Origin: an uncultured Ruminococcus sp.
GTDB lineage: Bacteria; Bacillota; Clostridia; Oscillospirales; Ruminococcaceae
Reading direction: 5' to 3'
DNA: 43,207 nucleotides
Assembly: GCF_902762735.1 (NCBI RefSeq)
Contig: NZ_CACWPP010000012.1
Coordinates: 1 to 43,207 of the forward strand
Part shown: positions 12,473 through 28,355 of the stretch, piece by piece
Layout: every line of letters begins with the position of its first letter
How positions within the stretch are numbered: the stretch's first letter is position 1
Program-made: the position numbers and the translations under genes
Notes under the pieces: generated by a model
Seen by the model: the letters and a program-made list of their open reading frames with translations, nothing else
Told to the model about the DNA's origin: nothing
Databases searched by the model: none

Positions 12473-12516
12473 TAACTTTACTACAAAGTTTACAATTTGT
12501 TAATATTTAAATCCGG

Positions 12517-12605
12517 ATTTGGTTGTGTATTGTTCCCCCGCCGAAGGCGGGGGGAACAATACGAAAGAACAGCCATTTTGTATCATCAACAATACACAAC
12601 CAAAT
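12517..12605. repeat. Palindromic element, family 3, copy 1
   Basis: Perfect 18-nt terminal inverted repeats (ATTTGGTTGTGTATTGTT and its complement at 12588-12605). Inside, GTATTGTTCCCCCGCC pairs with a neighbouring GGCGGGGGGAACAATAC. The left GTATTGTT can therefore pair either with the inner AACAATAC or with the terminal one. Confidence 0.85.
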
Positions 12606-12995: not shown

Positions 12996-13027
12996 TTGAC
13001 TTGACGGATAGATTGTGCTAATATAAT
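12996..13027 (+). promoter_or_regulatory. Promoter of the FTR1 iron operon
   Basis: TTGACT at 12996 with TAATAT 17 nt later; a TATAAT overlaps at 13022 (15 nt from the overlapping TTGACG). Either pairing starts the transcript near 13031-13034. Confidence 0.7.
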
Positions 13028-13056
13028 GACGGTTAGTGAGAACAAATATTTTTAAG

Positions 13057-13083
13057 AAAAAGTTGGCTTTGTGCCGACTTTTT
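13057..13083 (+). terminator. Terminator in the FTR1 leader (attenuator candidate)
   Basis: Eleven-pair stem AAAAAGTTGGC/GCCGACTTTTT (one G-T pair) with loop TTTGT. It lies only about 25 nt after the predicted transcript start and 95 nt before the first gene. It would end most transcripts unless read-through is controlled. Confidence 0.75.
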
Positions 13084-13099
13084 GTATTTTAGGCCGAAG

Positions 13100-13122
13100 T
13101 TAGCTTAGGTAAACTAAGTTAA
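13100..13122 (+). promoter_or_regulatory. Inverted repeat, candidate metalloregulator operator
   Basis: TTAGCTTAG and CTAAGTTAA separated by GTAAA; the half sites are complementary throughout, with one G-T pair in RNA form. The sequence resembles the TTAGG-type boxes bound by DtxR/IdeR family iron regulators. It lies between the leader terminator and the FTR1 start. The identity of the binder is inference. Confidence 0.5.
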
Positions 13123-13177
13123 GCAAGCCAAACACTGACCGAATGAGACAAACAGTCTCGGTGGGAGGAAAATGATA

Positions 13178-14809
13178 ATGTCACATAAAAATACCGTGAT
13201 AGGCAGGCTTTTGCCGCTGCTGACGGCGCTGATGCTGGCGCTTTTCAGTACGGGCATCACAGTTTTTGCGTCAACGGATTACTACCCTTCGTGGGAGGAG
13301 TACAAGGCTGCGGGTCAGCCTTCATCTACATGGAACGATGTTGCGGACTCCATCGACAAGCTGATGGAAGCGTCATATCAGCTGTATTCGCAGGGCAATA
13401 CCGATGAAGCCTATACGCCTATCCTCAATGCCTATAATTACTATTATGAAACATCGGGCTTTGAAAGAAATGTCAACGGCTATTCGGGTTCAGAAGTCAG
13501 CAAGGCTGAACTTGCTTTCAAAACGGCGCGAAAAGCTGTCAAAAAAGGCGAGGATATTGAGAAGATAAAAGAGATATTCAATGACCTCAGCGGGATACTT
13601 CACGTTCAGGCAAATCACCTTGACGGTCTTGGCGACAGCGGCGAGTCGAAGCTGACATTCGGCGAGGGCGGTGCTGCTGAGGAAACTGCGGCACAGGCTG
13701 ACAGCACGGAACAGACTGCTTCGGCAGAAACACCTGCGGCGGACAGCGGTTCTTCACCGCTGGACAGCGGCGGCACGAATGTGTGGGTCACTTTCGCAAG
13801 CTGTTTCGCTATAATCCTGCGTGAGGGTCTGGAAGCGATACTGGTTGTCGGTGCGATAATCGCATATCTGGTAAAATCGGGCAACAAGGATAAGCTGAAA
13901 CACGTTTATATCGGCTGTATTGCGGCTATTGGCGCGAGCTTCCTGTGCGCATGGCTGCTCAGTCTGCTAAAGCTGGCAAACACTGCAAATCAGGAGATAA
14001 TCGAAGGCGTGACCGCGCTGACGGCTGTGCTGGTGCTGTTCTATGTCAGCAACTGGATGGTCTCCAAAGCGGAGGCTGATACTTGGAACAAGTACATTGA
14101 TGAACAGGTGAAAGTATCTGCTGAGACAGGCAGTGTGTTCACGCTGGCATTTACTGCGTTCCTTGCGGTGTTCCGTGAGGGTGCGGAGGTGATACTCTTC
14201 TACCAGCCGCTTCTCAACGATGCCAAGAGCATGAGCTATGTCTGGGGCGGCTTCGGTGTGGGCGTTGTGGTGCTGGCTGTGGTATTCCTGTGCATCAGGT
14301 TCTTAAGTGTGAAACTGCCGATAAGACCCTTCTTCCTCGGCACGAGCATACTGATGTTCGTTATGTCCATATCTTTCCTGGGTGCGGGCATCAAGGAGCT
14401 TATCGAGGGCGATGTTATCGACATGACTTCACCTGACCGGTTACAGGCTGTCATACCGTTCAACGATGTGCTGAATGTGCTTGGCATCTATCCTGTGCTT
14501 GAAACGCTGATACCTCAGCTGATACTGATATTTGTAACGCTGATGATATTCGTTATGCAGAAATTCAAGATCAAAAATAAGAACGAAGCGGGCATACTTG
14601 CCATCGTTTTTGGAGGTCTTGGCGGACACAAGTTCTATCTTGGCAAATACGGTCAGGCACTTGTCTGCGTGGCATTCTGCTGGAGCGGTATCCCCGAACT
14701 GCTGGGCATCATACAGGGCATACATTACCTGACTGAAACGAACGAGCAGTTTGAGGAAGAGACAGCTCCCAAAAAGAAAGCGCCAAAGAAAAAGGCGGCG
14801 AAAAAATAG
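13178..14809 (+). CDS. FTR1-family high-affinity iron permease with C-terminal TM2 domain
   Basis: 543 residues from ATG 13178 (GGAGG 9 nt upstream; the ATG at 13172 is too close). A signal-like segment (11-32) is followed by a soluble extracytoplasmic region to about 200 with a helical iron-binding-like part and a Ala/Ser/Thr/Glu linker. The FTR1 permease domain has REGLE at 215-219 and REGAE at 333-337, the two iron-binding signature motifs. About residues 475-530 form a TM2 domain (FGGLGGHKFYLGKYGQALVC), an uncommon fusion. The tail is Lys-rich (KKKAPKKKAAKK). It should carry Fe(III) or newly oxidised iron across the membrane. First gene of the island; leader holds a terminator and an operator-like repeat. 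Confidence 0.93.
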   Translation: MSHKNTVIGRLLPLLTALMLALFSTGITVFASTDYYPSWEEYKAAGQPSSTWNDVADSIDKLMEASYQLYSQGNTDEAYTPILNAYNYYYETSGFERNVNGYSGSEVSKAELAFKTARKAVKKGEDIEKIKEIFNDLSGILHVQANHLDGLGDSGESKLTFGEGGAAEETAAQADSTEQTASAETPAADSGSSPLDSGGTNVWVTFASCFAIILREGLEAILVVGAIIAYLVKSGNKDKLKHVYIGCIAAIGASFLCAWLLSLLKLANTANQEIIEGVTALTAVLVLFYVSNWMVSKAEADTWNKYIDEQVKVSAETGSVFTLAFTAFLAVFREGAEVILFYQPLLNDAKSMSYVWGGFGVGVVVLAVVFLCIRFLSVKLPIRPFFLGTSILMFVMSISFLGAGIKELIEGDVIDMTSPDRLQAVIPFNDVLNVLGIYPVLETLIPQLILIFVTLMIFVMQKFKIKNKNEAGILAIVFGGLGGHKFYLGKYGQALVCVAFCWSGIPELLGIIQGIHYLTETNEQFEEETAPKKKAPKKKAAKK

Positions 14810-14879
14810 TCTACTATATCCCAAAAATAAGGGTAACTATAATAGAACAACAAAGTCATATTTTAAGGAGGAATTTTTT

Positions 14880-15563
14880 ATGACTAAGAAGAAGTTAGTC
14901 GGCATCGCACTGGCATCTATGATGGCTATGAGCCTCGCAGCATGCGGCGACACCGATACAAGCAGCTCTGCTGAGAGCAAGGCTGCTGCAAGCAGCGCTG
15001 AAACAACTGCTGCTGCTGAGAGCGAGAAGAGCGAGGGCACAGATGCTGTCGTTGAGGACACCCCTGCCGCTGCTGATGACGCTGCTGCGGGCTTCACTGA
15101 GTATCCTATCTTCGAGGACCAGGAAGTTGGTTTCCTGAACGTTTCTGCTGTTTACTTCCAGCCTGTTCCTATGTCGGGCGGCAACGAGAAGGTTGACGGC
15201 TTCAACATTCACCTTGAGGCTGACGTTTCCGCGCTGGAGAACGATCTGGGTTTCGGTGTTGGCGACTGGGTACCTTACATGACAGTTGACTACAAGATCA
15301 CAGGTTCTGACGGAAACGTTGCTGCTGACGGTACTTTCATGGTAATGTCCGCTTCTGACGGTCCTCACTACGGTGCTAACGTAGCTCTGCCTGATGCAGA
15401 TACTTACAGCATTGAATTCCAGTTCCACAACCCCGAAGAGAACGGCTACCTGCTGCACACCGATGCAGAAACAGGCCCCGGTGGTAATTTCGACGAGTAC
15501 TTCAAAGACGGCAACCTGAAGGTCACATTTGACGGTTGGGATTACGTTCCTCAGGAGTGGTAA
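14880..15563 (+). CDS. P19/Tp34-type iron-binding lipoprotein
   Basis: 227 residues from ATG 14880, with AAGGAGG 9 nt upstream. Lipobox LAAC at residue 22, then an Ala/Ser/Glu linker of about 45 residues. The remaining 160 residues match the periplasmic P19/Tp34 family (PF10634): FNIHLEADVSALENDLGFG, GDWVPYMTVDYKI and DGPHYGANVALPDADTYSI. The conserved His residues in HLEAD and PHYG are expected copper/iron ligands. In Campylobacter P19 is needed for iron uptake with an FTR1 permease. The gene lies 70 nt after FTR1. The partnership is therefore well supported. Confidence 0.92.
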   Translation: MTKKKLVGIALASMMAMSLAACGDTDTSSSAESKAAASSAETTAAAESEKSEGTDAVVEDTPAAADDAAAGFTEYPIFEDQEVGFLNVSAVYFQPVPMSGGNEKVDGFNIHLEADVSALENDLGFGVGDWVPYMTVDYKITGSDGNVAADGTFMVMSASDGPHYGANVALPDADTYSIEFQFHNPEENGYLLHTDAETGPGGNFDEYFKDGNLKVTFDGWDYVPQEW

Positions 15564-15603
15564 TTTTACATCGGTAAATTTCCTTCAATTAACAAAAATG
15601 CTT

Positions 15604-15635
15604 TATGCGCTGTGGACGAATATCTTCAGCGCATA
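15604..15635 (+). other. Nine-pair hairpin between the P19 and DUF2318 genes
   Basis: TATGCGCTG pairs with CAGCGCATA over a 14-nt loop, followed after 7 nt by TTTTT. It may reduce read-through from the highly expressed lipoprotein gene into the membrane genes. Confidence 0.55.
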
Positions 15636-15704
15636 TTGTGCGTTTTTGAAGTTAACAAAGGTTAATTTTTATTAACGAAATAATCCTCTGAAAGGAGAAG
15701 ATCT

Positions 15705-16979
15705 GTGTTAAAATATTTTGTGATGACCGTAGAAACGCTGGTGCTGGCGGCTGTGCTGACAGGCGCTCTGCGGGGCTTCATCAAACTGATAAAAGAGCGT
15801 TTCGGCGCTTATGCAGGCGGTATCGGCGCAGGTGTCGGCTTTGCGGCGGCGGCTCTTATGGCTTTTCTGAAAAATGCCACCACCAAGATAGATACCTCGC
15901 TGTGGAATTTGCGCATCTTCACTGTGACGATGATACTGTCGGTGCTGATGATAATAATTTCCATATTCCGCAAAAATAAGGTGATGGGGGCGATAAGCTG
16001 TGTTTTGGGCGGACTTGTCGCGGCACTGCTGATCTTCTATGCCCTTCCTGATGTGCTGGCGTACCCGTACATTATCCTGCTGACCGAGAAAACCGTGCTT
16101 TCGACGGGCTTTTTGTTCAAGTGCATCGGCATAATCTTCGGTCTGATACTCATGGTCGTGGCACAGATGGCTGTACACAACGGCATGCTGAGGCTTTCGG
16201 GCTGGCAGGCGTATGCTGTCACAGCGGTGATACTCATTATCAACGCCGCAAGACAATTCTGCGCAAGTCTGGGCATAATGCTCAACAAGCGCATGCTTGA
16301 AAACTTCGACCCCGATATAAAGCACGATATTTTCGAGCTGGTGAAATTTTCCTCCAATAACAGCAATATATTCGTTTATACGGCACTTACAGCGGCACTG
16401 GTGATGCCTGTTCTGCTGTGGATAAAGAGCCTGCGTGCCAACGAGCCTTACGACAATCCCGCACAGAAGCGCAAACTGCGCAAAAAGTGGCGCGTTACCA
16501 GAACTTGGGCGAACCTCGCTATATTCTGCCTTGTTTTTGGGCTGGTGACATTCACCACCCTCGATGCGGTGGCTAACAGGGAAGTGCCGCTGTCTCCCGT
16601 TGAAGATGCAAAGATAGAGAACGGCTATGTGATAGTGCCTTTTGAACAGGTCGATGACGGTCATCTGCACCGCTTTGCTTATGTGACCGAGAACGATATT
16701 CAGATACGCTTCATCGTCATAAAAAAGCCGAACTCTTCGGCTTACGGCATCGGTCTTGATGCCTGCGATGTCTGCGGCGAAACGGGCTATTTCGAGAAAG
16801 ACGGTCAGGTGGTGTGCAAGCTGTGCGATGTTGTGATGAACATTCAGACCATCGGTTTCAAGGGCGGCTGCAACCCGATAGTCATACCCTATGAGATACG
16901 TGACGGGCAGATATTAGTGCCGCTGGACGGTCTTACCGAGCATGAAAAGATGTTCAAGAACAACCGAATGAGAAGCTGA
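15705..16979 (+). CDS. DUF2318 membrane protein (iron-uptake associated)
   Basis: 424 residues from GTG 15705, with AAAGGAG 7 nt upstream. Eight or so membrane segments occupy residues 1-290. The C-terminal domain of about 130 residues is DUF2318, with C354/C357 (CDVCGETG), C371/C374 (CKLCDVVMNIQTIGF) and C389 (GGCNPI). These cysteines could bind a metal or carry out redox chemistry. DUF2318 proteins accompany FTR1, P19 and the FtsX-type ABC genes in the Campylobacter p19 operon. The biochemical role of the family is not settled; delivery or reduction of iron outside the membrane is plausible. Confidence 0.92.
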   Translation: MLKYFVMTVETLVLAAVLTGALRGFIKLIKERFGAYAGGIGAGVGFAAAALMAFLKNATTKIDTSLWNLRIFTVTMILSVLMIIISIFRKNKVMGAISCVLGGLVAALLIFYALPDVLAYPYIILLTEKTVLSTGFLFKCIGIIFGLILMVVAQMAVHNGMLRLSGWQAYAVTAVILIINAARQFCASLGIMLNKRMLENFDPDIKHDIFELVKFSSNNSNIFVYTALTAALVMPVLLWIKSLRANEPYDNPAQKRKLRKKWRVTRTWANLAIFCLVFGLVTFTTLDAVANREVPLSPVEDAKIENGYVIVPFEQVDDGHLHRFAYVTENDIQIRFIVIKKPNSSAYGIGLDACDVCGETGYFEKDGQVVCKLCDVVMNIQTIGFKGGCNPIVIPYEIRDGQILVPLDGLTEHEKMFKNNRMRS

Positions 16980-16990
16980 GGAGGGGCAGT

Positions 16991-18283
16991 ATGTTCTTTA
17001 GAATGATACGCGGGACACTGTTCCGCCAGTGGAAAAAAATGCTGATGATAGCCTTTACCATAGCGCTTGGCGCATCGCTGGCTTCGGCTATGCTGAGCGT
17101 TATGCTGGATGTGGGCGACAAGGTAAATCAGGAACTTAAAACTTACGGCGCGAACATAACCGTTGTACCGAAGGAAAATTCGGTGCTGACGAACCTCTAT
17201 GAGGTCGAGGACGGCGGTGTGAGCGGCGCTTATTTGCAGGAAGATGAACTGGGCAAGATAAAGACCATCTTCTGGGCATTCAACATCGTGGATTTTGCGC
17301 CGTTCGTCAATGTTGATGCGACACTTGACGACGGCACTGAAGTGCAGTGTGTGGGAAGCTGGTTCGACCACCACATGGATCTGCCCACAGGTGAAACTCT
17401 TGATGCGGGCGTTGTAAGTCTGCGAAGCTGGTGGGAACTGACAGAAGGTTCGTGGATAGATGAACAGCTTTCTGCCAACAGCGCCGATGAAGTGATGGTG
17501 GGCAAAGACCTTGCCGAAAAGCTGGGCGTTAAGGCGGGCGACACGCTCCATCTGAACGGTCCCGCATCTGACAAAAACATGAAAGTTGCGGGCATATACG
17601 ATGCGGGCGGCACTGAGGACATGCAGATGTACATGCAGCTCGACACCGCGCAGGAACTTGCCGACCTTGAGGGCAGGGTAGACAAGATAGAAGTCAGCGC
17701 ACTGACAACTCCCGAAAACGAACTTTCTGAGCGTGCGGCAAAAGACCCGTCATCGCTGACAGTGGCGCAGATGGAAACATGGACATGCACCGCTTATGCA
17801 AGTTCGATATGCTACCAGATACAGCAGGTCATCACCGATTCGGTAGCCGCCCCCGTAAGGCAGGTGGCTGACTCGGAGGGTGCAATACTCAGCAAGACAC
17901 AGCTTCTGATGATACTGATAACCATACTCAGTCTGATAGGTGCGGCGCTGGGTATATGCAATCTGGTGACGGCAAGCGTTATGGAGAGAAGTCAGGAGAT
18001 AGGTCTGATGAAAGCCATAGGTGCGCATAACCTGTCAGTGGCACTGCTGGTGCTGTGCGAGATATTCATAACAGCGATAATCGGCGGTGTTGCGGGCTTC
18101 TTTGCGGGCTTTGGCTTTGCACAGCTGATAGGTCACACGGTATTCGGTTCAGCCATAGAGATGCGCCCGATGGTAGTGCCCATAGTTGCGGTGCTGGTGG
18201 TGCTGGTGACGCTGATAGGCTCGATACCCGCCATAAGAATGCTGCTGGGTCTGCGCCCGACAGAAGTTCTTCACGGCAGATAA
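16991..18283 (+). CDS. ABC transporter permease, FtsX/MacB type (first)
   Basis: 430 residues, with GAGGAGGGGCAG before the ATG. One N-terminal membrane helix (20-40), a large extracytoplasmic domain of about 270 residues with the opening TYGANITVVPKENSVL, and three C-terminal helices of the FtsX domain (SQEIGLMKAIGAHNLSVALL and the following segments). Members of this class are mechanotransmitting rather than channel-forming, coupling ATP hydrolysis in the cytoplasm to work on extracytoplasmic proteins. It probably pairs with the second permease (18302) and the ATPase at 19871, as in the P19 operons of other bacteria. Confidence 0.92.
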   Translation: MFFRMIRGTLFRQWKKMLMIAFTIALGASLASAMLSVMLDVGDKVNQELKTYGANITVVPKENSVLTNLYEVEDGGVSGAYLQEDELGKIKTIFWAFNIVDFAPFVNVDATLDDGTEVQCVGSWFDHHMDLPTGETLDAGVVSLRSWWELTEGSWIDEQLSANSADEVMVGKDLAEKLGVKAGDTLHLNGPASDKNMKVAGIYDAGGTEDMQMYMQLDTAQELADLEGRVDKIEVSALTTPENELSERAAKDPSSLTVAQMETWTCTAYASSICYQIQQVITDSVAAPVRQVADSEGAILSKTQLLMILITILSLIGAALGICNLVTASVMERSQEIGLMKAIGAHNLSVALLVLCEIFITAIIGGVAGFFAGFGFAQLIGHTVFGSAIEMRPMVVPIVAVLVVLVTLIGSIPAIRMLLGLRPTEVLHGR

Positions 18284-18301
18284 GAGCGGAGGCAGAGTAA
18301 A

Positions 18302-19471
18302 ATGAAAAAGAGAAAAATGTTCATACGTATGATAACAGCCTCGCTTATGCGGCGGCGTTCGCGAATGGTGGTGGCGCTTCTGTCCATAGCCATCGGTGCG
18401 ACAATACTTTCGGGGCTGGTGTCGATATACTACGATGTACCGAGACAGATGGGCGCTGAGTTCAGAAACTACGGCGCTAACATGATATTCACTGCGGGCG
18501 ATGATGCTTTCACCTTAGACGATGTGAGAGCGGGACAGTCGAAGATAGACAGCTCGCAGATAGTGGGCGTTGCGCCATACCGCTATGAGAACGTGAGGAT
18601 AAACGATATTCCCGTTGTTGCGGCGGGCACCGACCCTGAGGGCGCTAAAAAAGCAAGCCCTTACTGGCGTGTTGAGGGCGAGTGGTTCTCGGGTGACAGT
18701 CAGCTGCTTATCGGCGCATCGGTGGCAGAGACTTTCAGGCTGAAAGCGGGCGACACCATAGAGGTTTCTTACAGCCCCGTGTCGGACAGCGATGAAACGA
18801 CTTCTGACGGCGAGGACGAGTTCACACTTGACACCTACAAGCCGTTCACAGTGATGGGCGTTTTGCAGACAGGCGGTTCGGAAGAGAACTACATCTACAT
18901 GAGCCTTGATGCGCTGACTGAGCTTACGGGCGAAGAGGGCACTCTCGATGTGGCAGAACTGAGCGTTTCTGCCGACTCGGAACAGCTCGCGGGCTATATC
19001 AGCGAGATAAACGGCAGTGTGAAGAACGTTCATGCAAGCCTTGTAAAGCGCGTGACCGCATCGGAAGCATCGGTGCTGACAAAATTGCAGGCACTGGTGC
19101 TGCTGGTAACGATAGTCGTGCTGGCGCTGACGATGATATGCGTTGCCACCACCATGACAGCAGTTGTGGCGGAGCGCCGCAAGGAGATAGGTCTGCGCAA
19201 GGCGATAGGCGCATCTGACAAGAGCATAATACAGGAATTTATGGGCGAGAGCATGCTTCTGGGTCTGCTGGGCGGACTTCTCGGCGCGGTGCTTGGCTTT
19301 GTGTTCGCACAGCAGGTCAGCATCAATGTGTTCAGCAGTTCGATCTCGTTCAGACCGCTTCTTCTGCCGATAACAGTGCTGGCTTCCATAGCGGTAACAG
19401 GCATATCCAGCCTTATGCCCATAAGAAGTGCAACAGACGTTGACCCCGCACTTGTCCTCAAAGGCGAATAG
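18302..19471 (+). CDS. ABC transporter permease, FtsX/MacB type (second)
   Basis: 389 residues, starting 18 nt after the first permease with GGAGG upstream. Same architecture: helix at about 18-40, an extracytoplasmic domain opening with RNYGANMIFTAGDDAF, then the FtsX segment RKEIGLRKAIGASDKSIIQE and two further helices. The two permeases are divergent paralogues and probably form a heterodimer. A third paralogue is encoded at 26483. No stop or frameshift disturbs it. It is followed by 400 nt of repeats and a new promoter before the ATPase. Confidence 0.92.
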   Translation: MKKRKMFIRMITASLMRRRSRMVVALLSIAIGATILSGLVSIYYDVPRQMGAEFRNYGANMIFTAGDDAFTLDDVRAGQSKIDSSQIVGVAPYRYENVRINDIPVVAAGTDPEGAKKASPYWRVEGEWFSGDSQLLIGASVAETFRLKAGDTIEVSYSPVSDSDETTSDGEDEFTLDTYKPFTVMGVLQTGGSEENYIYMSLDALTELTGEEGTLDVAELSVSADSEQLAGYISEINGSVKNVHASLVKRVTASEASVLTKLQALVLLVTIVVLALTMICVATTMTAVVAERRKEIGLRKAIGASDKSIIQEFMGESMLLGLLGGLLGAVLGFVFAQQVSINVFSSSISFRPLLLPITVLASIAVTGISSLMPIRSATDVDPALVLKGE

Positions 19472-19473
19472 GT

Positions 19474-19510
19474 TATTAATTCATAATTCATAATGCATAA
19501 TTCATAATTG
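19474..19510 (+). repeat. Short AT-rich tandem repeat (AATTCATAATTCAT type)
   Basis: Several tandem copies of AATTCATA and GCATAATTCATA directly after the permease stop. Similar runs lie at 19671-19689 and 22089-22121. Such runs are common between genes in some clostridia; nothing suggests a function. Confidence 0.8.
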
Positions 19511-19611
19511 TTGACATGCATTGGAGCTTGTCTCTGCATAATGATATTTGTCATTAAAGGCGGGCAAATTCGCTGTGAAAATAATTATTTGGGGAAATTG
19601 ATAAAATAGGC

Positions 19612-19640
19612 TTGTAATTAATTGAGATTTATGTTATAAT
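19612..19640 (+). promoter_or_regulatory. Internal promoter before the ABC ATPase
   Basis: TTGTAA, 17 nt, TATAAT. It lies in the 400-nt gap within the island and gives a leader of about 225 nt to the ATPase. Confidence 0.75.
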
Positions 19641-19646
19641 TATCGC

Positions 19647-19870
19647 AAGGAGAGTTCCGATAGATTTTTTAATGCATAATTCATAATTGCTGAGCACATT
19701 CACAATTCTCCAAAAACAACCCAAAGCGCGAGAGCTTTTTGCGCCCTGACCGTAGGGAGCGGAGCGAACGAAGCGTCAGACCTGACGCGCAAAAAGTCCC
19801 GCACAACATCAGCAGAGCTGAAGTTTGTGGTATGGGGAACGCAGTCCCCCATTTAAGATAGGAGTTTAAG
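19647..19870 (+). other. Structured leader before the ABC ATPase
   Basis: Contains AATTCATA repeats (19671-19689), CTTTTTGCGC complementary to GCGCAAAAAG at about 19788, an inner GCGTCA/TGACGC hairpin, and ATGGGGA/TCCCCAT near 19832-19852 shortly before the ribosome site. These could be alternatives of one fold. No protein-coding frame is convincing. Confidence 0.5.
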
Positions 19871-20560
19871 ATGAGTTTATTGGAACTGAAAAATGTTTAT
19901 AAGATCTATGGAGATCTTCATGCGCTCGATGATGTGAGCCTGAAGGTCAAAAAGGGCGAGTGGGTGTCGATAATGGGACCCTCAGGCTCGGGAAAAAGTA
20001 CGATGATGAATATTATCGGGTGCATGGATAAGCCAAGCAAGGGCGAAGTTCTGCTGGACGGTGTGGATATTTCTAAGGAGTCGAAGAAGAACCTGACCAA
20101 TATCCGCAGGGACAAGATAGGGCTTATCTTCCAGCAGTTCCACCTGGTAAATTACCTGACAGCGGTGGAGAATGTCATGCTGGCGCAGTATTATCACAGC
20201 ATACCCGATGAAAAGGAAGCACTCGAAGCGCTGGACAGAGTGGGTCTGGCGGACAGGGCGAAGCATCTGCCCAGTCAGCTTTCGGGCGGTGAACAGCAGC
20301 GCGTGTGCGTGGCAAGGGCGCTGATAAATTATCCTGAGATAGTACTGGCTGACGAGCCGACAGGCAACCTCGATGAAGCTAACGAAGAGGTCGTTGTTGA
20401 CCTGTTTCACAAACTGCATGACGAGGGTACGACGCTGATAGTAGTCACCCATGACCCTGAGGTAGCTGAGGTGGCACAGCGCACGCTGGTGCTGAGGAGC
20501 GGCAAGCTCAGCAAAGAGGTCGTCAATGAGAATTTTACAGGCAAGATAAGGTTTGACTAG
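19871..20560 (+). CDS. ABC transporter ATPase (MacB/LolD type)
   Basis: 229 residues. Walker A GPSGSGKST, Q-loop near FQQFHLVNYLTAVENVMLAQ, signature LSGGEQQRV, Walker B VLADEPTG and the His switch in VVTHDPEV are all intact. This is the energising subunit for FtsX-type permeases, and its partners are presumably the two encoded at 16991 and 18302. It has its own promoter (19612) and continues with no terminator into the FMN-binding lipoprotein gene 16 nt later. Confidence 0.95.
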   Translation: MSLLELKNVYKIYGDLHALDDVSLKVKKGEWVSIMGPSGSGKSTMMNIIGCMDKPSKGEVLLDGVDISKESKKNLTNIRRDKIGLIFQQFHLVNYLTAVENVMLAQYYHSIPDEKEALEALDRVGLADRAKHLPSQLSGGEQQRVCVARALINYPEIVLADEPTGNLDEANEEVVVDLFHKLHDEGTTLIVVTHDPEVAEVAQRTLVLRSGKLSKEVVNENFTGKIRFD

Positions 20561-20576
20561 AGCGGAGGTATAGCGT

Positions 20577-21014
20577 ATGAAAAAGCTGATGATAGCAGTG
20601 TCGGTGCTGGCGCTGACTGCGGGGCTGACCGCATGCGGGAGCAAGTCTTACAAGGACGGCACTTACAAGGCTAAAAGTGCCGAATATCACAGCGATGACG
20701 GCACAGAAGAAGGCAACGGCTACGGTGAGGTCGAGCTGACCATATCGGGCGGCAAGATAACCGACTGCACTTTCAAGACCTACGAGCTTGACGGGACACT
20801 CAAAGACGAGGATTACGGCAAAGAGGACGGCGAGATAAAGAACAAGGACTATTACAGCAAGGCACAGCGCGCAAGGGCGGCTTGCGAGAACTATGCCTCT
20901 CAGCTGGTGTCGAAGGGCGATATTGAGGAGGTCGATGGCGTGAGCGGTGCGACTGTCAATTACAGTGAGTTCAAGGAGGCTGTTACTGCGGCATTGAAGC
21001 AGGCAGAGGAATAA
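20577..21014 (+). CDS. FMN-binding lipoprotein (flavinylated, FMN_bind domain)
   Basis: 145 residues. Signal peptide with lipobox LTAC, lipidation at C20, then an FMN-binding domain with YKDGTYKAKSAEYHSDDG, EVELTISGGKITDC and the flavinylation motif D120-G-V-S-G-A-T126. In this family ApbE transfers FMN onto the Thr. The protein would then be an outer-face electron carrier. ApbE itself is not in this window. In Campylobacter-like operons a thioredoxin-like protein sits here instead. The ribosome site is GGAGG, 8 nt before the ATG; its stop overlaps the next start. Confidence 0.92.
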   Translation: MKKLMIAVSVLALTAGLTACGSKSYKDGTYKAKSAEYHSDDGTEEGNGYGEVELTISGGKITDCTFKTYELDGTLKDEDYGKEDGEIKNKDYYSKAQRARAACENYASQLVSKGDIEEVDGVSGATVNYSEFKEAVTAALKQAEE

Positions 21015-21532
21015 TGCGGGTGCTGCGTCATGTCATCGTTACAGCGGCGGCGCTGTTTCTGATGCTGGGTCTGCCATTTCTTAACAGTGACTATTATAAG
21101 CGTCTGCGTGACGGCACTGACGCTGTGTCAAGTGCGTCCACTGCGCTTGACAAGCCGTCGGGTGAGTATGTGGTGTTCATCAACCGAAGCCTGCATACCA
21201 ACAGCGCAAATCTCGCGGCGTGGGAAGGTTTCTTTGCTGAGGGCAGGGACGAGGGGCTTTACAATGTCTTTGAGGACCTGCATTGTACCGTAGCCGAGAA
21301 TGATGCGGCAGGGCTTGAAATGGCAAATAGTTTCCGGTCGATACTGCCCGAGAACCAGATGAAAGTCAGCACCGAAAATGTGATGCTGATGCTTTCAAAG
21401 GCTGAGAACGGGCGGTTCGATGTGATAGTTATGTCTAAGGAGATCGCAGATATGTTCGGTGCAGAACGCATAGCGGCAATGACTGACGCAGATATGCTGA
21501 CAGTAAAACAGGCAGAGGGGGAAGAAGCGTGA
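21014..21532 (+). CDS. Membrane-anchored protein of unknown function in the electron-transfer cluster
   Basis: 172 residues, with ATG sharing its first base with the stop of the FMN gene (overlap of 1 nt). Residues 5-24 form a hydrophobic anchor or uncleaved signal. The rest is predicted to lie outside the membrane and has a mixed alpha/beta pattern (GEYVVFINRSLHTN, RFDVIVMSKEIADMFGAERI). It contains one cysteine (in DLHCTVAEN) and no recognisable cofactor motif. I do not recognise a family. The tight coupling to the flavoprotein before and the cytochrome b-like protein after suggests that it is part of the same complex. Confidence 0.8.
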   Translation: MRVLRHVIVTAAALFLMLGLPFLNSDYYKRLRDGTDAVSSASTALDKPSGEYVVFINRSLHTNSANLAAWEGFFAEGRDEGLYNVFEDLHCTVAENDAAGLEMANSFRSILPENQMKVSTENVMLMLSKAENGRFDVIVMSKEIADMFGAERIAAMTDADMLTVKQAEGEEA

Positions 21533-22077
21533 GAAGAGTCAATGCAGTCATAAGTATGCTGATACTGGCGCTTTTTCTCTTTCATGGAGTGGTCGGCGGT
21601 TTTCAGCTGGCGGGCGTTATGGAGGGCGGAAATGCCCTGATGCAGAACCTCGCCCATATAATGGAAGCGATGATAGGGCTGCATTTGCTTATCGGCACAA
21701 AGCTGACTGTTGACACGGTGATAGCCATGAAAAAGTCGGGTACGCATTATTACAAGGAGAACAGGCTTTTCTGGCTGAGAAGAGTCAGCGGCTTTGCTTG
21801 TATGGTGTTCATAGCGCTCCACATCATGCTGTTTGTCGGCAAAAATGACGGTGTTTACCGCCTGAACTTCTTCGGCGGCTTACAGCTGGCAACGCAGATA
21901 CTGCTGGTGCTTTCCATCGCGGTGCATGTGATAAGCAACGCAAAACCGATGCTTCTCAGCTTCGGCACAAAGTCGTATAAAGAACTTGGCATCGACCTTG
22001 CGGTGATATTATCGGGCATACTGCTGTTCACAGGGGTGTGCTTTGTGATATATTATTTCAGGTGGAAGATGATATAA
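21529..22077 (+). CDS. Cytochrome b-like membrane subunit (fumarate reductase/succinate dehydrogenase anchor type)
   Basis: 182 residues from GTG 21529, overlapping the previous stop by 4 nt (GTGA), so translation is coupled. Five membrane segments (about 8-28, 40-58, 84-104, 115-137, 155-177). Histidines inside or at membrane edges are H19 (LFHG), H43 (LAHIM), H52 (GLHL), H98 (ALHIM) and H133 (AVHVI). The pattern suits one or two bis-His hemes b as in diheme FrdC/SdhC anchors. Quinol or menaquinol oxidation is plausible. The flavoprotein and iron-sulfur genes follow nearby, at 22535 and 24264. Confidence 0.75.
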   Translation: MRRVNAVISMLILALFLFHGVVGGFQLAGVMEGGNALMQNLAHIMEAMIGLHLLIGTKLTVDTVIAMKKSGTHYYKENRLFWLRRVSGFACMVFIALHIMLFVGKNDGVYRLNFFGGLQLATQILLVLSIAVHVISNAKPMLLSFGTKSYKELGIDLAVILSGILLFTGVCFVIYYFRWKMI

Positions 22078-22088
22078 TGGCGCTTTTT

Positions 22089-22121
22089 TAATTCATAATT
22101 CATAATTCACAATTCATAATT
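22089..22121 (+). repeat. Short AT-rich tandem repeat (AATTCATAATTCAT type)
   Basis: Run of AATTCATAATTCATAATTCA units, like that at 19474-19510. It begins the repeat-rich 457-nt gap before the flavoprotein gene. Confidence 0.8.
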
Positions 22122-22141
22122 GTTGGCATGGGCGAAAGTTT

Positions 22142-22188
22142 GCCGTTCTGCCGCAAGCGGGTAAGAACGGCAAGCGGGTAAGAACGGC
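22142..22188 (+). repeat. 17-nt tandem duplication with a competing hairpin
   Basis: AAGCGGGTAAGAACGGC occurs twice back to back (22155-22171, 22172-22188). GCCGTTCT at 22142 is complementary to AGAACGGC in either copy, so two mutually exclusive hairpins are possible. Confidence 0.7.
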
Positions 22189-22232
22189 AATCATCGCGAT
22201 GGGCGGTCATCGCTTAACCGCGTAAACAGGCG

Positions 22233-22352
22233 CTTGTGACGACTTGTGACGGGTTGACGGCATTTTGCAATACTTCTTTATATATTTATTATTTTTCTTT
22301 TTCTATGTGAAAGGAATATAAAAACCCGTCAAACCCGTCACAACCCGTCACG
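22233..22352 (+). repeat. Tandem hairpin element, copy 1 (arms of the ACCCGTCA type)
   Basis: Left arm with TTGTGACG and GTGACGGGTTGACGG, a conserved T-rich core (22261-22322), then a right arm with three ACCCGTCA-like units. The arms are complementary over about 26 nt. The core, with ACTTCTTTATATAT and CTATGTGAAAGGAATATAAA, is shared with copy 2 although the arms are not. Confidence 0.75.
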
Positions 22353-22367
22353 GAGGGGCTAAAGGCT

Positions 22368-22490
22368 GATGTATGGAGGGTCATGGAAGGGTCGGGGCGT
22401 TTTGCAGGACTTCTTTATATATTATATTTTTCTTTTTTCTATGTGAAAGAAATATAAAGACCTTGCAAACCTTCCATACCCTTCCATAGG
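22368..22490 (+). repeat. Tandem hairpin element, copy 2 (arms of the CTTCCATA type)
   Basis: Left arm TATGGAGGGTCATGGAAGG, a core almost identical to copy 1 (TTTTGCAGGACTTCTTTATA and CTATGTGAAAGAAATATAAA), and a right arm of CCTTCCATACCCTTCCATA. The arms are complementary to each other but unrelated to those of copy 1. It ends 45 nt before the start of the flavoprotein gene. Confidence 0.75.
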
Positions 22491-22534
22491 ATATGAAACG
22501 TACTGTCAGATATTGGGAAAAGGTTGAACGGCTT

Positions 22535-24082
22535 ATGGAAAAGACTATCATTATCGGCGCGGGGCTTTCGGGGCTGACGGCGGCTATCACCCTTGCGAAG
22601 GGCGGGCGGCACTGTCGGCTGGTATCACTGCAAGCCTCTGAAAGGGCGCAGTCGGTGCTTGCTGAGGGCGGCATCAATGCGGCGCTGGACGTTATGGGCG
22701 AGGGCGACAGTCCGCAGTACCATTTTGAAGATACCATGAAAGGCGGGGTGTACCTCGCTGATGAAAACGCTGTCAGGCGGCTGACTGAGGGTGCGCCCGA
22801 AGTCGTGCGGTGGCTGGCGGGGCTTGGTGTGCCTTTCAACATGGCTGAGGGTCATCTCGTTCAGCGAAATTTCGGCGGGCAGAAGAAAAAGCGCACCGCT
22901 TACGCCAAAAGCAGTACAGGCAAGATGATAATGTCGGCGCTGATAGATGAAGCGCGAAAGTACGAAGCATCGGGGCTTATCGAGCGCTTCCCGCACCACG
23001 AGTTCATTGAAGCCGTTATTGAGGACGGCGTATGTAAAGGGGCGGTGGTGCGCGACTGCTATGCCGACAAGTCTGCGGTAATGCGGGGGAAAGTGATAAT
23101 GTGCTGCGGCGGAATGGCAGGGCTGTTCCCGAATATGACCACAGGTACGACACAAAACAGCGGCTATGCGGCGGCAAAGCTGTTTGAACAGGGGGTCATC
23201 TTCGGCAACGCGGAGATGCTCCAATACCACCCGACGACCATCGGCATACCCGACAAGCGCTGTCTTGTCACCGAAGCGGCACGCGGCGAGGGCGGCAGGC
23301 TGTATATCGAGAGGGGCGGCGAAAAGTGGTATTTCATGGAAGAAAAATACCCAGAGCTGAAAAACCTGATGCCCCGCGATGTCGTTTCGCGCGAGATGTA
23401 CTTCGTAAGGCGGCGGGAGGACTGCGGCGACACGGTTTATCTGGATATGACGGGGCTTTCTGCCGAGATATGGCAAAAGCGTCTGCCCGACCTGCGCGCC
23501 GAGATAATACACTATCTCGCCATCGACCCTGCCGAGAAGCCTGTGCCTGTCCATGAGGGCATACACTATTTTATGGGCGGCATCTACACCGATGTGAACC
23601 ATCGCACCAATATCAGCGGGCTGTATGCGGCGGGCGAGTGTACCTGCCAGTATCACGGTGCTAACCGTCTGGGCGGGAATTCGATGCTGGGGGCTGTTTT
23701 CGGCGGAAAGACTGCCGCTGAGGATATACTTGCGGGTGACGAGGGCGAAAATTCGGACGAGACAGAGTTTTCGGGGGACTGCCATGCCGATGAACCGAGC
23801 GAAGCGGTCAGAAAAGAACTGGGCGAAATATTGTACTCAGGACTGGGCATAGTCAGGAGCGAAGCGGGTATCGACTCAGCTATTGCAGGGCTTGACGCAC
23901 TTGAAAAGCGCGAAGGCATCTTCCCGCGTACAAGGCTGGGACGAGCGATGCTGATGTCGGCAAAAGCCCGAAAAGAGAGTCGCGGTGCCCATTACCGCGA
24001 GGATCACCCCGACAAGGACGAAAGCCTGCGTTCTCCCACTTTTTCATGGTGCGAGGGCGGCGAAGTCAGGGTGAAGATATAG
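22535..24082 (+). CDS. Fumarate reductase/succinate dehydrogenase-type flavoprotein subunit
   Basis: 515 residues from ATG 22535 (AAAAGG 11 nt upstream; the in-frame ATG at 22493 has no ribosome site and lies at the end of the hairpin repeat). FAD motif GAGLSG at 8-13, substrate-site segments AEGGINAALD, LQYHPTTIG, TEAARGEGGRLY, VSREMYFVRR, HYFMGGIYTD and GECTCQYHGANRLGGNS. The LGGNS and GEC forms favour FrdA/SdhA over L-aspartate oxidase (NadB). The His that binds FAD covalently in FrdA is replaced by Gln (Q39 in ERAQSVLAEGG), so FAD is probably held non-covalently. The partner subunit is at 24264. Confidence 0.85.
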   Translation: MEKTIIIGAGLSGLTAAITLAKGGRHCRLVSLQASERAQSVLAEGGINAALDVMGEGDSPQYHFEDTMKGGVYLADENAVRRLTEGAPEVVRWLAGLGVPFNMAEGHLVQRNFGGQKKKRTAYAKSSTGKMIMSALIDEARKYEASGLIERFPHHEFIEAVIEDGVCKGAVVRDCYADKSAVMRGKVIMCCGGMAGLFPNMTTGTTQNSGYAAAKLFEQGVIFGNAEMLQYHPTTIGIPDKRCLVTEAARGEGGRLYIERGGEKWYFMEEKYPELKNLMPRDVVSREMYFVRRREDCGDTVYLDMTGLSAEIWQKRLPDLRAEIIHYLAIDPAEKPVPVHEGIHYFMGGIYTDVNHRTNISGLYAAGECTCQYHGANRLGGNSMLGAVFGGKTAAEDILAGDEGENSDETEFSGDCHADEPSEAVRKELGEILYSGLGIVRSEAGIDSAIAGLDALEKREGIFPRTRLGRAMLMSAKARKESRGAHYREDHPDKDESLRSPTFSWCEGGEVRVKI

Positions 24083-24152
24083 CTTCTGCACTGACACGGA
24101 ATAACTGTCAAAAAATTACTTTAGACTTTGAAAAATGTCGGCAGAGTGTACA

Positions 24153-24181
24153 TTGACTTTATCGGCTTGCTGTGATATAAT
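24153..24181 (+). promoter_or_regulatory. Promoter before the iron-sulfur subunit gene
   Basis: TTGACT, 17 nt, TATAAT. It separates the iron-sulfur subunit and the genes after it from the flavoprotein gene, which ends at 24082. Confidence 0.9.
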
Positions 24182-24263
24182 TCCTATAAAGCAGAGTTAA
24201 ATTATAGGAGATTTTCGGCAAGGTCGGGAAAATGCCTGAAACAGGCGAAAGGGAGTGAACGTG

Positions 24264-24980
24264 ATGACCACCGAACTGAAAATTCTCAGGCGTGAAAGCG
24301 CTCAGGAAAAAGCCTGTTGGCAGAGTTTCATATTTGAGACAGATGATGAAAACGCCGCTGTTTCCACTGCGCTGACAGCCTTAAATGCACGCGCCGAACT
24401 GAAAGACAAGGACGGCAAGCCTGCAAAGCCCATCAGATGGGAGTGCAGCTGTCTGCAAAAGAAGTGCGGTGCATGCGCGATGGTCATAAACGGCAGTCCG
24501 CGTCTTGCCTGTGACAGCAAGCTGAAAGAACTCGGCAGTGTTGTGACGGTCGAGCCGCTGAGGAAATTCCCTGTGGTGGCTGACCTGATAGTTGACAGAA
24601 AGGCGATGTTAGACAGCCTGCGCGAGATGTCGGTATGGCTGAAAAGCGAGCTTGCTCCCGATGAAAAAACGCAGGAGATCGCCTACGAAGCATCGGGCTG
24701 TTTGCAGTGCGGGTGCTGTCTGGAGGTCTGCCCGAACTTCTATGCGGGCGGCAAATTCGTCGGCATGGCTGGCGGAGTGCCTGTTTCGCGGCTGATAGAA
24801 CAGCTCCCGAAAGATGAAAAGCGCGATATTCTGAAAGAGTACCGCAGGCGGGTCTATGCGGGGTGCGGGAAATCGCTGGCGTGCAGGAAGGTCTGTCCTG
24901 CGGGGCTTGACATCGAGAAACTGCTGGTCAACTCAAACGCCGCCGCCGCATGGAAGTCGCTGTTTTGGCGCAAAAAGTGA
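24264..24980 (+). CDS. Fumarate reductase/succinate dehydrogenase-type iron-sulfur subunit
   Basis: 238 residues from ATG 24264 (GGGAG 8 nt upstream; the GTG codons at 24255 and 24261 are worse placed). The plant-type 2Fe-2S set is C63, C68, C71, C83 (C-x4-C-x2-C-x11-C). A first ferredoxin cluster has C146, C149, C152, C156 followed by Pro, with an extra C151. The third has C201, C207, C211 followed by Pro. This is the standard three-cluster FrdB/SdhB layout. It should carry electrons between the flavoprotein at 22535 and a membrane cytochrome b, probably that at 21529. Its end overlaps the next gene. Confidence 0.92.
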   Translation: MTTELKILRRESAQEKACWQSFIFETDDENAAVSTALTALNARAELKDKDGKPAKPIRWECSCLQKKCGACAMVINGSPRLACDSKLKELGSVVTVEPLRKFPVVADLIVDRKAMLDSLREMSVWLKSELAPDEKTQEIAYEASGCLQCGCCLEVCPNFYAGGKFVGMAGGVPVSRLIEQLPKDEKRDILKEYRRRVYAGCGKSLACRKVCPAGLDIEKLLVNSNAAAAWKSLFWRKK

Positions 24981-25876
24981 ACAGGCTGGGGCTTTGGCTG
25001 TTCGCGGCGGTCTATTTTGGGGTGACTGCTTGCGGGCTGACGCTGGCGGTGAGGGCATCTCAGCCGCGTTATCACTATGAGGTCAGGCAAGACCTCAGCG
25101 TACATTTTGACAATGCCGATAAAGTCATCGAGAAAGTGCGCTTACGCCTGAAAGAGCGGGCAGAAGTCATACGCATAACATACAGCGCCCAAAACAGCAG
25201 TCTTGATGATACAGATAAAATAGTTCGTGAGCTGATGCGATTCGCCTGCGCCGAGACAGACCGTCCCGACGAAGGCGATTATATTGGGTGTCAGTTAGGT
25301 GGATATAACTCTGCTTTCACCGAAGAAAAAGCCGATGGCGGTCACAGGAACGTCATTGAGATAACGCCGATATATTTTACTGATGCCGCGCAGGAAAGCG
25401 AGACAGACAGCGCTGTAAAGGCAGTGCTTGAAAGTCTGGGGCTGTCTGATGATGCGGGCGATGAGGAGAAGGTCAGGGCTGTTTATGACTGGGTATGCGA
25501 CAATGTGCAGTATGACCATATCCACCGCCGAAATGACAGCTACCGACTGCGTTCGGCGGCATACGGGGCGCTGGTTTACAGGCGGGCGACCTGCATGGGC
25601 TATGCGGTGACGGTATACCGTCTTTTGCGGGAACTGGGTGTCGGCTGTCGGGTCATAACAGGTGATGCGGCGGGGGAGTACCACGCATGGAACATCGTAT
25701 GTATTGACGGCGAGTGGTACAACGCTGATGCCACATGGGATTCTATGGGCGGCGGACGGGAGAACTATCTTAAAAGCGACAGTGACTTCGGTGAACATGT
25801 GAGGGAAGAAAAGTTCGATACAGCCGAATTTCGGGCGATGTACCCGATGGCTGTCACAAGTCTGAAAGGAAAGTAA
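24950..25876 (+). CDS. Membrane-anchored transglutaminase-like protein
   Basis: 308 residues from ATG 24950, overlapping the iron-sulfur gene by 31 nt; a GTG at 24977 overlapping its stop (GTGA) is an equally good start, giving 299 residues. A hydrophobic segment near residues 13-35 anchors the protein. A transglutaminase-like core follows: the catalytic Cys in RATCMGYAV, the His in EYHAWNIV and the Asp in YNADATWD. It also has the domain linker VYDWVCDNVQYD. Such domains act as proteases or cross-linkers in the cell envelope. Why it is joined to an electron-transfer subunit is not evident. Confidence 0.8.
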   Translation: MEVAVLAQKVNRLGLWLFAAVYFGVTACGLTLAVRASQPRYHYEVRQDLSVHFDNADKVIEKVRLRLKERAEVIRITYSAQNSSLDDTDKIVRELMRFACAETDRPDEGDYIGCQLGGYNSAFTEEKADGGHRNVIEITPIYFTDAAQESETDSAVKAVLESLGLSDDAGDEEKVRAVYDWVCDNVQYDHIHRRNDSYRLRSAAYGALVYRRATCMGYAVTVYRLLRELGVGCRVITGDAAGEYHAWNIVCIDGEWYNADATWDSMGGGRENYLKSDSDFGEHVREEKFDTAEFRAMYPMAVTSLKGK

Positions 25877-25882
25877 TGTAAA

Positions 25883-26287: not shown

Positions 26288-26372
26288 CTTGCGGCTGACG
26301 GCAAAGCAGTCCCCCGAAAAGGATAGCCCCTCAGCGCTGTCTGATTATAAATGTCTCTGAAATTGGCAGTGT

Positions 26373-26482: not shown

Positions 26483-27679
26483 ATGAAAAGTCTGGCAATA
26501 AAAAATCTAAAGGGCAGACCTGTTCGCACCGCTGTGCTGATGGTGCTGGCGGCACTGCTGAGTTTCACGGCGCTGGGCGGCACGCTGGTGGTGGCAAGTC
26601 TCGGCAAGGGACTTGACTCGCTGAAAGCCCGTCTTGGTGCAGATGTGATGGTCGTGCCGAAAGAAGCCACCATGAAAAAGAAGTTCGAGGACATCGTATT
26701 GCAGGGAAGCACGGGTTATTTTTATATGAGTTATGCCCTTGCCGACGAAGTGATACAGCGTGAGGGAGTTGGGCAGGTGTCGCCGCAGTTTTTTCTGGCT
26801 TCGACAGGTTCGAGCTGCTGTTCGATACCTGTACAGATAATCGGATTTGACCCCGCTACCGATTTTACTGTAAGTCCCTGGATAAAGCGTACTTACGGCG
26901 GTGAACTGGGCAAATACGACATCGTGGCGGGCAGTGACCTCAATGCCTTTGTGGGCGATAAGCTGAGTTTCTACGGCGTTGAATGCACTGTTGCCGCAAA
27001 GCTGGAAAAGACAGGCACTTCCTACGATACGACGGTATTCACCAATAAGGACACCATCACTGCGCTGATACAGTCATCACTGGACAAGGGTATGAACGAT
27101 TTCAAGGACACAGACCCCGAAAAAGCTGTCTCCTGCCTGATGATAAATGCGGCTGACGGCACTTCGCCCGAAGAACTGGTAAACGATATAAATATCCACT
27201 GCAAAAAGGTCAGGGCTTTCAGGTCGGGCGACATGATAAGCGGCATCGCGGGGAGTCTTGGCGGCGTTTCGCAGATGATACGACTGCTTATCGCGGCGGT
27301 ATGGGTGCTGGGCATAGTGATACTTCTGCTGGCATTCACCATGAGCGTAAACGAGCGCAAAAAGGAGTTCGCGGTACTTCGGGTAATGGGTGCATCGCGG
27401 GCAAAGCTGGCGGGACTGGTGCTTAAAGAAGCACTCTGCACCTGTCTGGGCGGCAGTCTTATAGGCGCTGTTGTCGGACTGCTGGTGCTTCTGCCTTTCA
27501 ACGGCGTTATCGAAAAGACACTTGCACTGCCGTTTCTTCTGCCAAATGCGGGGAGCATAACGGGCTTTGCCGTTTCAGCTGTTGCCCTTTCGGTAATATC
27601 GGGTGCAGCGGCGGCGGCTGTCAGCGCATGGCGGGTCAGCCGCATCGACACGGGGCTTATTCTTAGGGGGGACAACTGA
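26483..27679 (+). CDS. ABC transporter permease, FtsX/MacB type (third)
   Basis: 398 residues, with GGAG 9 nt before the ATG. N-terminal helix (about 15-38), an extracytoplasmic domain beginning RLGADVMVVPKEATM, and three C-terminal helices with the FtsX segment RKKEFAVLRVMGASRAKLAG. It is a paralogue of the permeases at 16991 and 18302, sharing the GAx(x)xVVPKE opening. The stop overlaps the next start by 1 nt. As a single permease it would form a homodimer with the adjacent ATPase. Confidence 0.92.
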   Translation: MKSLAIKNLKGRPVRTAVLMVLAALLSFTALGGTLVVASLGKGLDSLKARLGADVMVVPKEATMKKKFEDIVLQGSTGYFYMSYALADEVIQREGVGQVSPQFFLASTGSSCCSIPVQIIGFDPATDFTVSPWIKRTYGGELGKYDIVAGSDLNAFVGDKLSFYGVECTVAAKLEKTGTSYDTTVFTNKDTITALIQSSLDKGMNDFKDTDPEKAVSCLMINAADGTSPEELVNDINIHCKKVRAFRSGDMISGIAGSLGGVSQMIRLLIAAVWVLGIVILLLAFTMSVNERKKEFAVLRVMGASRAKLAGLVLKEALCTCLGGSLIGAVVGLLVLLPFNGVIEKTLALPFLLPNAGSITGFAVSAVALSVISGAAAAAVSAWRVSRIDTGLILRGDN

Positions 27680-28350: not shown

Positions 28351-28355
28351 AAACA

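Follow-up and report, generated by a model that had tools for sequence, protein, structure and literature searches.

A P19/FTR1 iron import operon joined to complex II-type genes in Ruminococcus, with a candidate quinone-independent fumarate reductase

Background

Why should the genes of a bacterial iron importer run on, along one strand, into those of a membrane cytochrome b and a fumarate reductase-like enzyme? The question is raised by a contig of 43,207 nucleotides (hereafter the window) from an uncultured Ruminococcus sp. (NZ_CACWPP010000012.1, contig 12 of 242 in a genome totalling 4.06 Mb), in which 15 plus-strand open reading frames span 13172-28350, from the iron permease gene FTR1 to the ATPase gene ATP2. 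We report that the iron operon and the CytB/FrdA/FrdB part form one conserved unit, and we propose that it may encode a membrane fumarate reductase that works without a quinone and serves the importer.

Papers are cited below by PubMed Central (PMC) number. The P19/FTR1 system consists of FTR1, P19, a DUF2318 protein, two FtsX permeases and an ATPase, joined in Firmicutes by an FMN-binding protein as the seventh member; its DUF2318 protein follows the pattern CxxC-x13-CxxC-x14/15-C (PMC6083913). Such clusters presumably depend on proteins encoded elsewhere for their electron link (PMC8238504), and the same paper covers P19/FTR1 and complex II-like systems as separate examples. Our literature search, which covered openly readable text but not the PMC8238504 supplements, found no P19/FTR1 cluster with complex II genes named.

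Results

Gene content of the locus

The genes of the unit, in order and all on the plus strand, are as follows (Pfam accessions with the value of each match):

13172..14809, plus strand: FTR1, iron permease (PF03239 1.1e-22) with a TM2 domain (PF05154 6.5e-12) at its C-terminal end, window 14573-14722
14880..15563, plus strand: P19-type iron-binding lipoprotein (PF10634 1.9e-42)
15705..16979, plus strand: FtrD-like/DUF2318 membrane protein (PF10080 3.3e-29) with CxxC-x13-CxxC-x14-C, the motif read in the translation
16991..18283, plus strand: FtsX-type permease 1 (FtsX1), by position and conservation
18302..19471, plus strand: FtsX-type permease 2 (FtsX2), by position and conservation
19871..20560, plus strand: ABC ATPase 1 (ATP1), by position and conservation
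20577..21014, plus strand: FMN-binding lipoprotein (FMNlp; PF04205 4.8e-08), DGVSGAT at 20934-20954
21014..21532, plus strand: Anch, an anchored protein with one N-terminal helix, a flavinylation-like DAVSSAS at 21119-21139 and a small alpha/beta domain
21529..22077, plus strand: CytB, anchor of the complex II type with five helices; His19, 52, 98 and 133 invariant
22535..24082, plus strand: FrdA, fumarate-site residues retained, Gln (22649-22651) replacing the FAD-binding His of complex II
24255..24980, plus strand: FrdB, eleven Cys, sufficient for 2Fe-2S, 4Fe-4S and 3Fe-4S clusters
24950..25876, plus strand: transglutaminase-core protein (PF01841 3.1e-16), absent in relatives' loci L027 and L028
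25883..26287, plus strand: DUF4418 membrane protein (PF14387 7.7e-28)
26483..27679, plus strand: FtsX-type permease 3 (FtsX3), by position and conservation
27679..28350, plus strand: ABC ATPase 2 (ATP2), by position and conservation

Ten proteins of the unit were scanned with Pfam and NCBIfam, which supported the named families, while the FtsX and ATPase genes were assigned by sequence and conservation. An earlier note on this DNA had described an iron operon joined to cytochrome b and fumarate reductase-like genes between 12996 and 24980. Every gene that it listed is a plus-strand open frame where it had been placed, and Pfam agrees with the FTR1, P19, DUF2318, FMN-binding, FrdA-like and FrdB-like identities. 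The downstream boundary did not hold: FrdB overlaps the transglutaminase-core gene, and DUF4418, FtsX3 and ATP2 come next, all recurring in relatives, so that the unit contains four more genes and reaches 28350. In its gene order, the Cys motif of its DUF2318 protein and the FMN-binding protein in seventh place, the window has a P19/FTR1 system as described.

The junction is conserved among relatives

We surveyed 150 relatives, the window's own genome counted among them (genomes carry G numbers below, loci L numbers). CytB is present in 14 of the 150, and full-length FtrD (frames of 415 to 452 amino acids, the whole model covered) is confined to the same 14. The other FtrD matches above the cut-off are short frames in G051, G055 and G079, an additional short copy each in G020 and G026, and a single borderline partial match in G099; 12 further genomes have weaker matches. 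The short FtrD-like protein (G051, G055, G079, G026:C28, G020:C325), in frames of about 150-205 amino acids, is without the long membrane part. FrdB occurs in all 14 CytB genomes, as a single match in each, which lies within the iron operon in 13 and in a lone module in G063; elsewhere in the survey FrdB has matches of about 40% identity in G018 and G092 and weak ones in four more genomes.

Twelve of 13 loci fetched from relatives retain the gene order up to the limits of their contigs, and ten of these run from FTR1 to ATP2; the thirteenth, L026, is Anch-CytB-FrdA-FrdB alone, and the transglutaminase gene is absent from two of the 13. Among 84,980 species genomes scanned, 176 CytB relatives were confirmed and the best 80 kept, several of these being the same records as the 13. 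Flanks of at least 7 kb upstream and 2.5 kb downstream are available for 53 of the 80 loci. In 48 of the 53, CytB is preceded by FtrD and followed by FrdA and FrdB; the five exceptions are L129, without FrdAB, and L137, L145, L158 and L159, without the iron operon. Where 7 kb of upstream sequence exists, the iron operon is upstream in 55 of 59 loci. Since the loci were found through CytB and only the closest were taken, the linked fraction is valid for this clade. Of the named relatives, Ruminococcus albus 8 (L082) is the nearest, and its FrdA is 96% identical to that of the window.

With the order retained in 12/13 and 48/53 loci, linkage by chance is unlikely, and iron operon and CytB-FrdAB very probably make up one functional unit. 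The earlier note had asked whether its gene order recurs, which it does, and had named FrdA and FrdB homologues at unrelated loci as the result that would refute its reading of the locus; for most loci, which are linked, this refutation failed. Separately, DUF4418 is relocated, to a place ahead of FTR1 or to one between FtsX2 and ATP1, in nine loci (L089, L091, L105, L111, L112, L127, L136, L154, L160), the remaining order being intact.

Split and mixed loci

Four loci (L129, L135, L152, L157) have the iron operon and CytB without FrdAB; all four genomes carry FrdB elsewhere with FrdA adjoining it, and three of them a second CytB. In a quick FrdA tree (47 rows, SH-aLRT support only), the relocated copies of these four genomes sit nested among linked ones, L172 grouping with L134 (98) and L173-L175 with L140 and L151 (100). 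The linked label needs 8 changes on this tree, and the linkage has therefore been broken or made more than once. The second CytB-type proteins beside the relocated FrdAB of L173, L174 and L175 are 33 to 41% identical to the window's CytB; in two of them the four His are retained, as read by eye, and no Anch lies upstream.

Conversely, six modules have no visible iron operon, and five of their genomes contain a full FtrD elsewhere, namely those of the four clear lone modules L137, L145, L158 and L159 and that of L156; the genome of L144 (G155) has none. L156 may owe its isolation to a contig break: its contig starts immediately ahead of Anch, and in the same genome the iron operon (L179) stops at a contig end after ATP1. 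When the two parts are clearly separated, the genome usually still has both. In L136, L143, L147 and L154, FtsX3 and ATP2 stand between CytB and FrdA, so that the gene sets are mixed and not merely adjacent. In two genomes (G302, L220 2901-5978; G404, L221 10302-13610), the module lies behind genes for a P-type ATPase-like protein (heavy-metal) and an ArsR-like regulator, both named by eye.

CytB, FrdA and FrdB resemble complex II

Pfam gave no convincing family for the window's Anch and CytB (0 families at E 0.01), whereas PF01127 matches 20 of 76 CytB relatives. The four His of CytB are invariant in an alignment of 76/76 relatives, and structure comparison matches its fold to the complex II anchor; CytB is accordingly best described as a five-helix anchor of the diheme type, with heme binding predicted from the alignment and the model. 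Several further columns are mostly acidic: D62 (78%), E77 (88%), E152 (53%) and D156 (99%).

FrdA has the Pfam domains FAD_binding_2 and Succ_DH_flav_C, and its five fumarate-site motifs are found in 66 to 72 of 72 sequences. At the position of the covalent-FAD His (aligned to the RSH of 6lum and 8dye) all 72 carry Gln, including seven that the search pattern missed and that were read as RAQS by eye. The best NCBIfam model for the window's FrdA is the Bacillus-type SdhA PRK08641, whose 413.5 bits fall short of the model's cut-off (855). L-aspartate oxidase, also considered, was rejected, as it scores 316.5 bits against 413.5 for the SdhA model and FrdB follows the gene. FrdA has no FMN_bind match in Pfam and no visible leader in its sequence, and so differs from an exported FMN-domain enzyme. 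FrdB, with the domains Fer2_3 and Fer4_8, retains its eleven Cys in 14/14.

The Gln bears on direction. The covalent FAD bond lifts the potential of FrdABCD from -145 to -55 mV, and complex II variants without that bond retain fumarate reduction and lose succinate oxidation (PMC5773532). From the behaviour of these published variants and the Gln in 72/72, fumarate reduction only is predicted for the enzyme. R. albus 7 in pure culture used 5.5 mM fumarate while its succinate rose by 2.2 mM (PMC6776011), in keeping with an active fumarate reductase, although the activity is not tied to this locus.

UbiA, a quinone prenyltransferase, scores above the cut-off in 0/14 CytB genomes, with matches below it in G002, G015 and G047, while the same search is positive in 14/14 control genomes. 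A quinone partner is unlikely in the window's close kin, though one may exist elsewhere.

Two candidate flavoproteins at the outer face

All 69 FMNlp relatives contain the flavinylation motif D-x-x-[ST]-G-A-[ST]. The transferase ApbE is encoded by each of the 14 CytB genomes; since 131/150 relatives have it, its presence is not discriminating. Anch has a single N-terminal helix followed by a D-A-[VI]-[ST]-x-A-[ST] stretch; the looser pattern D..[ST]xA[ST] is found in 64 of 75, 11 of these with the canonical [ST]GA[ST], and there are ten more near misses and one sequence, from L145, with none. Complete Anch genes came from 77 of the 80 loci, and the other three loci, L104, L119 and L148, start at a contig end. 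Gly to Ala in the published motif, D-x-x-[ST]-G-A-[ST], leaves about 50% flavinylated, and Ser is flavinylated less than Thr (PMC12052999). Anch is possibly a second flavoprotein, and that of the window, which has Ser in place of the Gly, may be flavinylated as well.

The Anch model (pLDDT 85.1) has as its nearest solved structure PDB 3noh (E 2.3e-06), to which the window's Anch is remote by profile (E 0.002). The Anch of G404 (L221 10302-10820) reads DAVTGAT and matches 3noh with E 7.3e-41, the chain of that entry starting at VTGAT, which resembles the flavinylation motif. This sequence match places PDB 3noh (RUMGNA_00914 of Ruminococcus gnavus), deposited in 2010 by structural genomics as a 'putative peptide binding protein', among the Anch proteins of the lone-module type.

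Gaps, repeats and candidate regulatory sites

Starts in the unit are coupled at FMNlp/Anch, Anch/CytB, FrdB/transglutaminase and FtsX3/ATP2, several coupled starts having been noted earlier, yet long gaps also occur in the window, ahead of ATP1 (399 bp), FrdA (457 bp) and FrdB (172 bp). Across the 80 loci the median gap is 10 bp for CytB-FrdA (n=68) and -4 bp for FrdA-FrdB (n=60), for which reason the window's long gaps look secondary. Those before ATP1 and FrdA contain repeats of AATTCATAATTCATAATT (19478-19509, 19671-19688, 22090-22121); the window has seven matches to AATTCATAATTCATAATT against about 0.01 expected, and the copies look like inserted repeat elements. The candidate sites are:

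12996..13024, plus strand: promoter-like site TTGACT-17-TAATAT 5' of the operon (consensus scan, 9/12; such a match is no evidence of function)
13100..13118, plus strand: predicted DtxR/IdeR-like box (13/19 against a consensus)
24153-24181: strong promoter-like site TTGACT-17-TATAAT in the gap before FrdB

Between the first promoter-like site and FTR1 there is also a terminator-like hairpin of 11 pairs (13057-13083), which makes attenuation of the operon possible. Over 54 stretches 5' of FTR1, some with the FTR1 start falling within the gene, the best scores for a DtxR/IdeR-like box averaged 12.59, against 11.04 (sd 0.96) in shuffles that preserved composition. In 25 loci with a well-placed FTR1 start the mean was 13.84/19, compared with 9.7-10.8 upstream of five other genes, a weak control because those stretches are mostly coding. 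The boxes are thus enriched upstream of FTR1, as predicted sites. A Fur box was rejected, its scores matching the shuffles (11.02 vs 11.09), and an Rfam search of 12500-28700 gave zero matches.

Discussion

Proposed electron path and the role of iron

The arrangement suggests a path in which electrons would leave the outer face by way of the FMN lipoprotein, pass to the tethered and possibly flavinylated Anch, enter the outer and then the inner heme b of CytB, and continue through the iron-sulfur clusters of FrdB to the FAD of FrdA, where fumarate would be reduced to succinate in the cytosol. We regard this flavoprotein-CytB-FrdBA path as likely. The gene content and order, the four His, the complex II-type fold, the fumarate site, the Gln and the UbiA result were computed; FMN-to-heme contact, flavinylation of the window's Anch, the direction, and iron as electron source are what we infer from them.

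The most likely electron source would be the iron that P19/FTR1 must oxidise for inward transport. Yeast Ftr1p transports Fe3+ that an oxidase generates on the spot, drawing on the energy set free, and the bacterial FtrC is predicted to act in the same way (PMC11966278); FetE and FetF, which stand in the position of FMNlp, are possibly oxidases (PMC10783030). An anaerobe would need another electron acceptor, and fumarate is therefore proposed, with CytB-FrdBA as the conduit, so that fumarate would take the role that oxygen has in oxidase-coupled FTR1 transport. That iron oxidation is the purpose of the system we put at slightly under even. The fuller picture, in which fumarate is the electron sink of oxidation-driven iron import in anaerobes through a quinone-free complex II that draws on covalent FMN carriers, is tentative and somewhat less than an even bet. 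For the simpler statement, that the unit is a quinone-independent membrane fumarate reductase belonging to the P19/FTR1 importer, we see the chances as evenly balanced.

Alternatives and the evidence against the proposal

The earlier note left open whether the module feeds or drains electrons. Outward flow would have FrdA oxidise succinate, or let another cytosolic donor feed in, while CytB and the flavoproteins reduce extracellular Fe(III) and so act as the importer's ferric reductase. Published work on the iron system leans this way: a reducing role is favoured for the FMN protein (PMC6083913, PMC8238504), FetE and FetF are described as relaying reducing power as well (PMC10783030), and SifE of Bifidobacterium has been named a possible ferric reductase (PMC5449479). 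Against it stands chiefly the Gln in place of the covalent-FAD His in 72/72, variants of that kind being unable to oxidise succinate (PMC5773532), and this is our main ground for the draining, inward direction, which we consider probable; moreover, the module's Pfam matches show no NAD(P)H-binding part beyond FAD-type Rossmann hits. Outward flow is, on this evidence, quite improbable. An ordinary menaquinol:fumarate reductase that adjoins the iron operon by chance, a form of the alternative that the earlier note itself had raised, is very improbable. Known type-B complex II operons have the gene order C-A-B, which the window shares together with the anchor fold, and UbiA scores above the cut-off in 2/17 further genomes (G444, G448); but the linkage is too widespread for chance, and UbiA is above the cut-off in none of the 14 close genomes.

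The module may instead be a flavin-linked fumarate reductase serving as a general electron outlet, for anaerobic respiration or redox balance, without part in moving iron, its adjacency and co-regulation coming from a high iron need and a shared FMN carrier. Such an outlet would account for modules in genomes without a FtrD match (Anch-CytB-FrdA-FrdB in G302 and G404; L144 in G155, though FMNlp precedes Anch there), for modules apart from the iron operon (L137, L145, L158, L159), for iron operons that include DUF4418, ATP2 and FtsX3 while lacking Anch, CytB and Frd (G340, G183, G360), and for the reduction of added fumarate by R. albus 7 (PMC6776011). It fits less well with the position of the module, which adjoins FMNlp in the majority of loci and has the iron operon upstream in 55/59, and with the mixed gene sets in four loci, and we judge it unlikely. 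The iron operon and the Frd module are each able to stand alone; in the remaining loci the module is flanked by FMNlp and the DUF4418 set, as though it had been inserted at that point.

These standalone cases, the UbiA matches in the wider set and the reducing role favoured in the literature all weigh against a fumarate reductase dedicated to the importer, and other points do so too. Ferrochelatase was found in 0/14 CytB genomes, so that heme must be scavenged or made by another route. The DAVSSAS of the window's Anch deviates from the canonical motif at two places. FrdB may also be expressed alone in the window's strain, given the strong promoter-like site in front of it. Finally, fumarate reductase genes are reported as "not highly transcribed" by two ruminococci in sheep (PMC8092306).

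Relation to known systems and significance

The first seven genes of the window have the same order as the Campylobacter fetMP-fetABCDEF system and its Gram-positive FMN form (PMC6083913, PMC10783030, PMC8238504), and the window differs from the P19/FTR1 cluster in the eight additional genes that follow the seventh. With type-B complex II (the quinol:fumarate reductases of Wolinella and Desulfovibrio gigas, the succinate dehydrogenase of Chloroflexus) it shares a five-helix diheme-type anchor, the FrdA active site and a three-cluster FrdB; unlike these, it is without the covalent-FAD His, is without UbiA above the cut-off in close genomes, and is linked both with flavoproteins outside the cytoplasm and with an iron importer. 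The extracytosolic flavinylated fumarate reductases (Listeria FrdA, Shewanella UrdA; PMC8238504) likewise link ApbE-type flavin carriers to a fumarate reductase-like enzyme, but the window's FrdA has neither a visible leader nor an FMN_bind match, and its partners are FrdB and a cytochrome b in the membrane. The DUF4405 cytochromes of flavinylation clusters and FezC are membrane cytochromes b too, for which a role in connecting flavinylated proteins is proposed, and they have a link to iron; these have six helices, with no FrdAB mentioned in the part of PMC11334425 consulted, whereas CytB is a five-helix complex II-type anchor. Each half of the locus is of a known kind, and the novelty lies in their junction, in a setting that lacks UbiA and in a second candidate flavoprotein.

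The locus is a concrete candidate for the link of P19/FTR1 systems to cellular electron pools, and one that occurs in a cultured species, Ruminococcus albus 8. If the proposal is true, it would supply the missing transmembrane electron link of P19 systems, would represent a quinone-free complex II whose partner is an outer-face protein, and would couple iron status to fumarate reduction in fibre-degrading bacteria of the gut and rumen. Iron uptake without oxygen could in this way gain an electron outlet in many gut and rumen bacteria.

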